From Arsenophonus endosymbiont of Aleurodicus dispersus (lineage in GTDB: Bacteria > Pseudomonadota > Gammaproteobacteria > Enterobacterales > Enterobacteriaceae): a stretch of 64,000 nt of DNA. The stretch covers positions 186,001 through 250,000 of the forward strand of contig NZ_LR025108.1 of NCBI RefSeq assembly GCF_900343015.1, read 5' to 3'. The notes beneath the pieces are model-generated. The model did no database searches. It saw only the letters and a list, made by a program, of their open reading frames with translations, and was not told where the DNA came from. Positions 17,002-20,796 of the stretch are shown in pieces. The position numbers and the translations under genes are program-made. The first letter of the stretch is position 1. Every line of letters starts with the position of its first letter.

Positions 17002-17613
17002 ATGATGACAAACAAAAATTACAACTATCACCAGACAAAATTTATCATAAGCGCGCCAGATATTAGCCAGTTACCAAAAGATCATGGTATAGAAATTGCT
17101 TTAGCTGGACATTCTAACGCTGGTAAATCAAGCACATTAAATGCCCTTACCCAACAAAAAAATCTAGCCCGTACTAGTAAAACACCTGGCAGAACACAGT
17201 TAATCAATTTATTCGAAGTTGCAGAAGGTATTAGACTAGTTGATTTACCTGGTTACGGTTATGCAGAAGTTACTAAATCTATTAAATACCAATGGCAACA
17301 AGCATTAGTTAAATATTTACAAAAAAGAAAATGTTTAAAAGGGTTAATAATATTAATGGACATTCGTCATCCATTAAAAAATATGGATATTCAAATAATT
17401 GAATGGTCTATAGCAAAGAATAGACAGATACTGATCTTGCTAAATAAAGCAGATAAACTAGTATCTAATCAACAAAAATATCAAGTTATAGCAGTACGTA
17501 ATAGATTAAAAAAAGTAGCTTATAATATACAAGTTGAACCATTTTCTTCATTGAAGAAAATAGGTGTTGATAAATTACAACTAACATTAGATGAATGGTT
17601 TGTGGATAATTAA
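17002..17613 (+). CDS. engB: Ribosome biogenesis GTP-binding protein EngB (YihA/YsxC)
   Basis: EngB is an essential TRAFAC GTPase that helps assemble the large ribosomal subunit. The G1 motif GHSNAGKSS is near residue 36, followed by [11 protein letters not shown] (G2), [10 protein letters not shown] (G3) and LLNKADKL (G4). The usual GRSNAGKS has His in place of Arg here, outside the nucleotide contacts. At 203 residues it is near the E. coli length of 210. It converges on polA, as in E. coli. The Spot 42 RNA gene that lies between them in E. coli is not found. Confidence 0.95.
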
Positions 17614-18003
17614 TTATAATAATTTATTTATCATGACCATTATATATTTTTATATACAAATAAAATAATGCTTTAGTTAATTATCTAACTATAGCAGATT
17701 AAAGTAATAGATTTTATTAAAAAAGTTTCTTGTTCATTTAATTTAGGCGATAAAATAATTAGATATAATTAATGCTAAATTTAGCTAAAATTTTAGGAGA
17801 TAACTAATTAATAATAAACATTATTAGGTATAATAAATATATAATCTAACTAAAATTAGTTTAATAGATCATGCTAAAAAAGCAATTTATTACCGACTAA
17901 TGTTATATTATAACTAATATAACATGTTAAATAGCTTGAACTTTTTATCAGCAAATAGCAAAAATTGCGATTTTTATTTCAATATATTTTAATATTTTAT
18001 TAT
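17614..18003. other. Convergent intergenic region engB/polA
   Basis: About 390 bases between convergent genes. In E. coli this is where spf (Spot 42 sRNA) lies. I searched by eye on the minus strand for its GC-rich terminator and conserved 5' segment and found neither. No clear terminator is seen for either gene. Confidence 0.45.
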
Positions 18004-20796
18004 TTAATGAGCTTCATACCAATTATTACCAATACCAACATCCACTGTTAATGGAACAGCTAGTTGCATATTTTGTTCCATTAACTGACGTATTTTTTTT
18101 TGTGACTCCTCAACTGCAGACTCTTTTACTTCAAAGACTAATTCATCATGTACTTGCATTAACATATAAAGATCAGGTTTTACAGTTTCAATCCATTTAT
18201 CTAATGCGATCATAGCTTTTTTTATTAGATCTGCAGCGGTTCCTTGCATTGGTGCGTTAATTGCCTCACGTTCAGATGCTTTACGTCGTATTGCATTACG
18301 AGAATTAATATCAGGTAAATAAAGTCTACGTCCTGCTATCGTTTCCACATATCCTTTTTCTGCAGCTTCCTTACGGGCACGCTCTATATAACTTAAAACA
18401 CCAGGATAGTGCTCAAAATAACGATCAATATAATACTGTGCCTGGCTACGAGTAATTCCTAACTGGCGTGACAATCCAAAAGCTCTCATACCATAAATTA
18501 AACCAAAATTAATTGCTTTTGCGCTACGTCGTTGCTGATTAGTTACATCAGTCAAAAATACACCAAAAATCTCTGCCGCTGTTGCTCTATGAATATCTTT
18601 TCCTTCAGCAAAAGCATCAAGCAATCCTTTATCTTGAGAAAGGTGGGCCATAATACGTAGTTCAATTTGCGAATAATCTGCCGCCATAATTTTATAACCT
18701 TCACGAGCAATAAACGCTTGACGAATACTTCGACCTTCCTCAGTACTAACCGGAATATTTTGTAAATTTGGATAACGGGAAGAAAGTCTACCAGTTGACG
18801 TTATTACCTGGTGATAAGAAGTATGTAACCTTTTTGTTTTTGGATGGATCATCATAGATAATTTATCAGTATAAGTAGATTTTAATTTTGACAAGCGACG
18901 GTGTTGCAAAATAATTTTTGGAAGCTCATGCCTAAAGGCTAGCTCTTCTAAAACTTCTGCATTAGTGGAAGGTGCTCCACTAGGCGTTTTCTTTAATACT
19001 GGTAGCTGAAGTTTTTCAAACAAAATAGCTTGTAACTGTTTAGGCGATGCATAATTAAATTCTTGCTCAGCGATATCATAAGCTTTTTTTTCAATCTTAA
19101 TTAATCGGTTTGCAATATCTTGAGATTGCTTAGCTAGCTTATTTTCATCGATAAGCACACCAACCCGCTCCATACGGGCTAATACCGGAACGAGAGGCAT
19201 TTCTATCTGTTGATAAATTTCTTTTAATTTAGGTTCTGCTTCAAGTTGAGGCCAAAGCGTTTGGTTTAATAATAATATGACTGCTGCATCTTCAGTTGCA
19301 TAAGCTGACGCTTGTTCAAGTGGGATTTGATTGAACATTAACTTTTTTTTTCCTTTGCAAGCTATATCTTTTAAAGATATAGTTTTATGATTGAGATACC
19401 GCTGTGCCAAACTATCTATATCTTGATGACTAAGTCCAGCGACACTATTTAATATATAAGATTCCAGCATTATATCAAAAACCATATTTTTTAATTCAAT
19501 ATCATAATTTGCCATCACGGAGTACCCAAATTTTAAATTTTGACCAATTTTTTGAATATTTTCATCAATTAAAACAGGTTTTATCACCTCTAATACCTCA
19601 TCTAAGGGTAACTGTTGTGGCGCATCAAGATAATTATGCCCTAGCGGAAGGTATGCTGCTTTACCATTTTCCATGGCAAAAGATAGTCCAACCAGATGTA
19701 CTGATAGCGTATCAAGGCTGTCAGTTTTAGTATCAAAGACAAAACTCTTTGCCGATTGTAATTTCTCAACCCATTGCACCAAATCAACTTTGGTCAATAT
19801 AGTTTGATAACTTTTTGTTAATAGAACAGATGCAGGCGATTCAGCCAAAGAAATATCGATATTGTTAATATAAATAGTAGTTGGAAATTTATTAAGTTTT
19901 TTTGTTAGCCAACCACAATTTGGTAAATCAGCTAACCAAAACTTAAATTCGTAACGACTAAAAAGCGCATGTAACTTTTCAATATCAGGCGCCTGCATAA
20001 CCAATCCATCATAATCTGTAGTTAAATTAACATTAGTTTTAATTGTGGCTAATTTATAAGATAAAAAAACAATATCTTTATTTAGTGCCATTTTTGCTGC
20101 TAATGTTTTCGACCCACGAAAACCTAATATAGAAATTGCAGATAAATTGTTATAAATAGTTGCTAAATCGCCAATTCCCTGCAACAAAGATAATGCTGTT
20201 TTTTCTCCTATACCAGGGACACCTGGTATATTATCGGAATAATCGCCCATTAAAGCAATAAAATCAATCATCAACTCAGGTGGCACGCCATATTTATCAA
20301 TAACTTCTATTGGCCCTAAGATAGTATTTGTCATATTATTAATGAGTTTTATATCCGCGGTTACTAATTGAGCCATATCTTTATCTCCTGTACTTATCAG
20401 TATAGGCAACCCTTTCTTACTGGCCTGTAAAGCTAATGTCCCTATTACATCATCAGCTTCTACACCAGCAACAACTAATAGGGGAATACCCATGCCAGTA
20501 AGAATTTCATGTAGAGGAGCTATTTGTTCACGTAAATCATCCGGCATTGGGGTCCTTTGAGATTTATACTGATCAAATAATTCATGTCGAAAAGTTTTTC
20601 CTTTGGCATCAAATACTACGGCAATATGACTAGGTTGATATTGCGTAATTAAACTACGCAGCATCGTAAGAAAACCATACATAGCACCGGTTGGCTCCCC
20701 TGCCATATTAGTTAATAGAGGAAAAGCATAATATGCACGATAAAAATAAAAGTAGCCATCAATCAAGATAAATGGGTTTTCTGCAATTTGCACCAT
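18004..20796 (-). CDS. polA: DNA polymerase I (5' nuclease and polymerase intact; proofreading site altered)
   Basis: Pol I removes RNA primers and fills gaps in lagging-strand and repair synthesis. At 930 residues it is full length. The 5' nuclease domain keeps its metal ligands ([31 protein letters not shown]). The polymerase domain keeps ADYSQIELR (motif A), [14 protein letters not shown] (O helix) and QVHDELVFE (motif C). The 3'-5' exonuclease domain is present, but residue 357 is Lys and residue 424 is Gly where E. coli has metal-binding Glu357 and Asp424; Asp355 and the equivalents of Tyr497 and Asp501 remain. By analogy with E. coli active-site mutants, proofreading should be lost or very weak. 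Confidence 0.97.

Follow-up and report, generated by a model that had tools for sequence, protein, structure and literature searches.

The polA gene and its product

The stretch of DNA analysed here, referred to below as the window, comprises 64,000 nucleotides from the Arsenophonus endosymbiont of Aleurodicus dispersus and carries polA on its minus strand. The gene and the domains of its product were placed as follows.

18004..20796, minus strand: polA, DNA polymerase I (Pol I), 930 aa, from open reading frame, domain models, equivalog models and Klenow alignment
19927..20796, minus strand: 5' nuclease domain spanning residues 1-290, with nine carboxylates retained, from domain model and alignment
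19237..19815, minus strand: 3'-5' exonuclease domain spanning residues 328-520, with changes at 13 of 45 invariant positions, from domain model and alignment
18007..19236, minus strand: polymerase domain spanning residues 521-930, with its catalytic residues retained and with R682S and S769R in E. coli numbering

The reading frame begins with ATG and is free of internal stops, and all three domains are recognised, so that the description of the protein as full length in the sequence-only reading of this DNA was borne out. The product scores 1165.1 bits against the Pol I equivalog NF004397 (cut-off 720) and 925.6 against TIGR00593 (cut-off 600). With a 5' nuclease, a 3'-5' exonuclease and a family A polymerase domain joined in one protein that exceeds these cut-offs, and with the polymerase catalytic residues D705, D882 and E883 present, it belongs to PolA1. 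It is the sole Pol I match in the genome, a single contig of 663,125 bases, and the Pol I of four named Arsenophonus records is 83-84% identical to it. The product of polA is an ordinary Pol I, encoded on the chromosome of an Arsenophonus with a strongly reduced genome. Next to polA lies a gene (17002-17613) that we take to be engB-like. An Rfam search of the gap between the two (17614-18003) gave no match and thus no Spot 42 RNA, the gene for which presumably sits at the corresponding spot beside polA in E. coli.

Replacement of two exonuclease carboxylates

The exonuclease site was read from an alignment with the Klenow fragment of E. coli (1dpi and others). An insertion of two residues shifts the counterparts of Tyr497 and Asp501 to Tyr499 and Asp503 here.

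19732..19734, minus strand: codon 355, GAT, Asp kept
19726..19728, minus strand: codon 357, AAA, Lys replacing Glu
19525..19527, minus strand: codon 424, GGG, Gly replacing Asp
19300..19302, minus strand: codon 499, TAT, equivalent of Tyr497, kept
19288..19290, minus strand: codon 503, GAT, equivalent of Asp501, kept

Both the codons and the alignment therefore confirm that Lys357 and Gly424 stand in place of Glu357 and Asp424, and the earlier statement on the survival of Asp355 and of the counterparts of Tyr497 and Asp501 is equally correct. Two of the five residues that define an E. coli-type proofreading Pol I (D355, E357, D424, Y497, D501) are replaced, and the DEDDy motif, substituted by E357K and D424G, is that of an exonuclease-inactive Pol I as judged from sequence. 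In E. coli Pol I, D424A and D355A/E357A are known to abolish exonuclease activity. With two of the four metal-binding carboxylates lost, the exonuclease activity of this Pol I is predicted to be abolished as well.

Alignment of polA with its relatives places the changes within Arsenophonus: five genomes of the genus, of 1.9-3.7 Mb (G001, G003-G006), keep all five exonuclease residues and carry GAA and GAT at codons 357 and 424, as against AAA and GGG here. E357K and D424G would thus have arisen in or near this lineage, and from such codons E357K takes one base change and D424G two. The two steps of D424G are A to G and T to G, the direction opposite to the mutation bias toward A+T.

The site is also altered in a 0.8 Mb Arsenophonus (G008), with D355E and D424N, which groups with this gene on a starred branch of a quick tree but on a long branch of its own; position 424 alone is altered in both, with different residues. 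In a 0.9 Mb Arsenophonus (G002; G002:C1:745055-747053, L054) roughly 300 aa of the polA frame, covering the 5' nuclease, are still open, and many stops interrupt the exonuclease and polymerase parts; this genome gave no MutS or MutL match and retains DnaQ. A further one, 72% complete (G007), gave a related nuclease and short weak matches only.

Extent of change within the protein

The sequence-only reading held that the 5' nuclease and polymerase sites are both intact, which stands for the catalytic residues. The 5' nuclease site has its nine carboxylates, and the polymerase has R668, D705, E710, R754, K758, F762, Y766, N845, Q849, H881, D882 and E883 (E. coli numbers); R682 is changed to Ser (18745-18747, codon 684) and S769 to Arg (18489-18491, codon 771). 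Across the order, S769 is Ser in 86/86 Pol I with an intact exonuclease site and changed in 12/48 with a broken one, and R682 is neither Arg nor Lys in 9/48 of the latter.

When invariance means the same residue in 85 or more of 86 intact homologues, a set that includes the five intact Arsenophonus, 13/45 invariant positions are changed here in the exonuclease domain, 7/160 in the polymerase and 3/68 in the 5' nuclease; each of the five intact Arsenophonus has 0 or 1 changed per domain. Leaving aside the five catalytic positions, 11/40 are changed in the exonuclease domain against 10/228 in the rest (Fisher p = 2.6e-5), an enrichment that is no chance effect. For pairs that include this gene, dN/dS was 0.21-0.31 in the exonuclease domain and 0.12-0.16 in the polymerase domain. 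The exonuclease value is also the higher one in pairs of intact relatives, and no special relaxation of selection is shown by this ratio. With the exonuclease domain no more conspicuous in dN/dS than it is among intact relatives, the pattern can be read as a loss that came late on the branch or as one in which the fold is still constrained.

Other fidelity and repair genes

The sequence-only reading had asked whether dnaQ and the mismatch-repair genes are intact. DnaQ of this genome has all five DEDDh residues, which rules out a genome-wide loss of proofreading, and MutS (892-aa frame) and MutL (653-aa frame) are both full length, which rules out the loss of either. A search of this genome for Y-family polymerases found none. 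The dnaQ gene itself is the one match of this genome to the DnaQ model; a second, weaker DEDD-type match, probably RNase T or a relative, is missing here but occurs in each of the 8 other Arsenophonus genomes, in G002 as a partial match. In a 3.0 Mb Arsenophonus with an intact Pol I exonuclease site (G003; G003:C4:67682-69407, L170, L171), MutL lies in two frames, split at about model position 148.

Across genomes, DnaQ scores above its cut-off in 40/42 of those without the Pol I site, the exceptions being G111 and G344, and the DEDDh letters are intact in 45/45 DnaQ proteins, 40 from genomes without the site and 5 from Arsenophonus with it. MutS scores above its cut-off in 25/42 genomes without the site and 7/8 with it; in the remaining 17/42 mismatch repair cannot cover for the lost site, since no MutS above cut-off is there. 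Y-family polymerases were found in 1/24 genomes without the site against 7/12 with it, two of the seven being fragments. These counts suggest a loss order of Y-family polymerases, then the Pol I site, then MutS, which is an ordering across genomes and not a dated history; exceptions are G071, with a Y-family gene and no site, and G082, with the site and no MutS in a genome 87% complete.

Pol I across the Enterobacterales

Pol I proteins of the order were aligned (135, of which 134 with the exonuclease region) and set against rounded genome sizes. All five exonuclease residues are present in 86/134, and the site is broken in 48/134. The division follows genome size: 45 broken and 0 intact at or below 1.85 Mb, 3 broken and 7 intact from 1.9 to 2.4 Mb, 0 broken and 79 intact above 2.45 Mb. 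Many of the large genomes are the best-scoring matches, one per genus, which favours normal Pol I, and large genomes with low-scoring or fragmentary matches (e.g. G193, G271, G373, G060, G346) stand outside the census. Also outside the main counts are G052 (2.3 Mb), G371 (0.7 Mb) and G190 (0.5 Mb), all broken, and G051 (4.0 Mb), intact, together with three entries that have no usable exonuclease region (L284, L285, L288), the entry L286, genomes with a 5' nuclease only, the eroded L054 (G002), which was left unaligned, and the named records L031-L035, at least four of which appear to duplicate G001, G003, G005 and G006. L055 (G018) lacks an exonuclease region in its longest frame. For L111, L112 and L115, which are among the 48 broken Pol I, residues 355 and 357 fall outside the stretch aligned, and the scoring uses other residues.

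Among the broken Pol I, four carboxylates are replaced in 20, three in 16, two in 10 and one in 2, gaps being uncounted, and the replaced residues differ between lineages. Replacement by Asn is seen 12 times at Asp355 and 11 times at Asp424, as expected from G-to-A pressure, to which D424G of the present gene runs opposite. The other two activities are spared: D705, H881, D882 and E883 of the polymerase are kept in 48/48 and the nine 5' nuclease carboxylates in 32/32 with a frame of at least 850 aa. The contrast also occurs within a genus, where G205 (2.2 Mb) is intact and G069 (1.4 Mb) carries D355H.

Relatedness limits how far the association with size can be taken. On a quick tree built from polymerase columns only, at least 7 changes of state fall on starred branches, and 10 on the best tree, stars with long rows deserving less trust. 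The smallest genomes cluster on long branches, which may be an artefact, one that would lower the number of changes. Of 7 independent pairs, about 5 had the broken site in the smaller genome and none showed the reverse (median p 0.0625); with a threshold of 1.5 Mb it was about 3 (median p 0.25). Under control for kinship the link between size and loss is only suggestive, and raw Fisher values for it across the order, which ignore kinship, are not to be taken at face value.

Small genomes outside the order

Elsewhere in the class, a carboxylate is lost in 15/54 genomes of at most 1.8 Mb and 1/20 larger ones (Fisher p 0.054), the larger ones being drawn from a best-scoring list that favours normal Pol I. 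L233, with the Tyr position alone changed, was scored as kept. The small set is 54 of 55 genomes, the other (G740) having a short polymerase match only. In one genus (g204) the 1.7 Mb genome is intact while those of 1.0 and 0.9 Mb are broken. The carboxylates are kept in 39/54 of the small genomes, and genome size as the sole cause is thereby ruled out. In view of what is generally known of tiny Enterobacterales genomes, host restriction, and not size, would drive the loss.

Explanation of the loss

The most probable explanation is degeneration: Pol I would have lost its proofreading as the genome was reduced, with the catalytic residues of the 5' nuclease and the polymerase kept and the exonuclease site lost repeatedly under weak selection. 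Pol I removes primers by its 5' nuclease and fills short gaps, and these two tasks would remain necessary. In small host-bound populations, selection on its proofreading may be too weak to hold the site, because Pol I copies short patches only and DnaQ and mismatch repair cover most errors. From such weak selection the site would be lost repeatedly, usually ahead of the polymerase part, with DnaQ retained. The mutational cost could escape selection as long as most of the fidelity is carried by DnaQ and, in genomes that have them, by MutS and MutL. Only 1-2% of the lagging strand is said to be copied by Pol I in E. coli, where an inactive Pol I exonuclease is reported to give a mutator biased toward that strand (PMC3121766). 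Weighing against this explanation are the dN/dS ratios, the modest outcome of the test under control for kinship, the small genomes outside the order that keep the site, the direction of D424G, and the genomes in which MutS is missing along with the site.

The proposal in the sequence-only reading that a proofreading-deficient Pol I would gain point mutations, which fits the pervasive decay, is not supported as an explanation of that decay. DnaQ, MutS and MutL are intact here, Arsenophonus of 2.4 and 1.9 Mb keep the Pol I site, and the 39 small genomes outside the order counted above keep the carboxylates. Since those two Arsenophonus are intact, genome reduction began without loss of the Pol I site. 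A mild mutator effect that contributes to decay, and is not its cause, is plausible.

An adaptive loss was also considered, in which an exonuclease-dead Pol I extends mismatches and bypasses lesions in place of lost Y-family translesion polymerases. The scarcity of Y-family genes in genomes without the site, and their absence from the search here, would fit such a role, and H. pylori Pol I, which has no proofreading, performs translesion synthesis, and the loss is argued by the authors of PMC3121766 to have been selected. The Y-family pattern is, however, confounded with genome size; five genomes (G005, G006, G221, G205, G100) have an intact site yet no Y-family match, and G071 has lost the site with a Y-family gene present. 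Furthermore, the changes are scattered and accumulate beyond the catalytic residues, as from decay. Decay and lesion bypass are not separated by the data, but these scattered, accumulating changes favour decay, and adaptive loss is rated unlikely.

Two other readings would deny the loss itself. Asp355, Asp503 and Tyr499 with their neighbours might keep a weak or altered exonuclease, as three of the five residues survive and domain models still detect the domain; but Lys and Gly stand at two metal-ligand carboxylates, 11 further invariant positions are changed, and the E. coli replacements at the same residues abolish activity, which makes a still active site quite improbable. A faulty assembly or misread bases at either codon or at both could be entertained because the analysis drew on a single assembly of the genome. 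It would have to produce three base changes in two codons beside 11 further changes at invariant exonuclease positions in a frame that stays open, and PMC6167482 gives a coverage of 1,698 for the A. dispersus Arsenophonus genome; on these grounds such an artefact was rejected as scarcely credible.

Of more weight than the single gene is the pattern in the order. Among the genomes read there, the site is kept in every one above 2.45 Mb and lost in every one at or below 1.85 Mb. DnaQ, another DEDD exonuclease, stays in nearly all of the same genomes, so that two kinds of proofreading appear to be separated by the strength of selection. Pairs within a genus (in Arsenophonus, and G069 against G205) offer a setting in which the effect of Pol I proofreading loss on lagging-strand mutation can be measured.

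Comparison with known systems

Substitution of the DEDDy motif is widespread, as about half of bacterial PolA1 are reported to carry it, largely by phylum and unrelated to genome size (PMC12926913). The proteins of that survey share with the present one the full Pol I architecture with exonuclease catalytic residues replaced, but the losses it describes lie largely in Firmicutes, Tenericutes and Actinobacteria, whereas here a recent loss is found in a clade whose larger genomes keep the site. H. pylori resembles the present symbiont in its small genome and its lack of Y-family polymerases; its Pol I is active as polymerase and 5' nuclease and has no proofreading, an inactivity that was measured there (PMC3121766) and is predicted here from the residues.

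Erosion of Pol I in host-bound bacteria, often with the 5' nuclease kept, is likewise known from Buchnera and Cardinium (PMC6403173, PMC12842512). Many endosymbionts are reported to have a 5' nuclease only or no Pol I (PMC6403173), and Cardinium shows partial polA losses that include the exonuclease (PMC12842512). Domains are missing in those cases, while here all are present and the exonuclease site alone is replaced. In Portiera of Aleurolobini whiteflies a proofreader has also been lost from a whitefly symbiont, but there it is the replicative one, through loss of dnaQ and with genome instability (PMC7821994), whereas DnaQ is intact here.

A literature search for Pol I proofreading loss in symbionts, whose coverage left out most subscription journals, gave, among the papers listed, none on this loss in Arsenophonus or on a pattern of it in Enterobacterales symbionts. 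A single exonuclease-dead Pol I is of a known and ordinary kind; its near-complete loss among reduced genomes of one order is sharper than the published statements and in no contradiction with them across bacteria. There is about an even chance that in host-restricted Enterobacterales the loss of Pol I proofreading is a near-obligate and repeatable step of reduction, with a preferred order in which Y-family polymerases go first, followed by the exonuclease site of Pol I and after that by mismatch repair together with the polymerase part of Pol I, DnaQ and the 5' nuclease usually staying, so that genome reduction would predict inactivation in this clade, unlike in bacteria at large.
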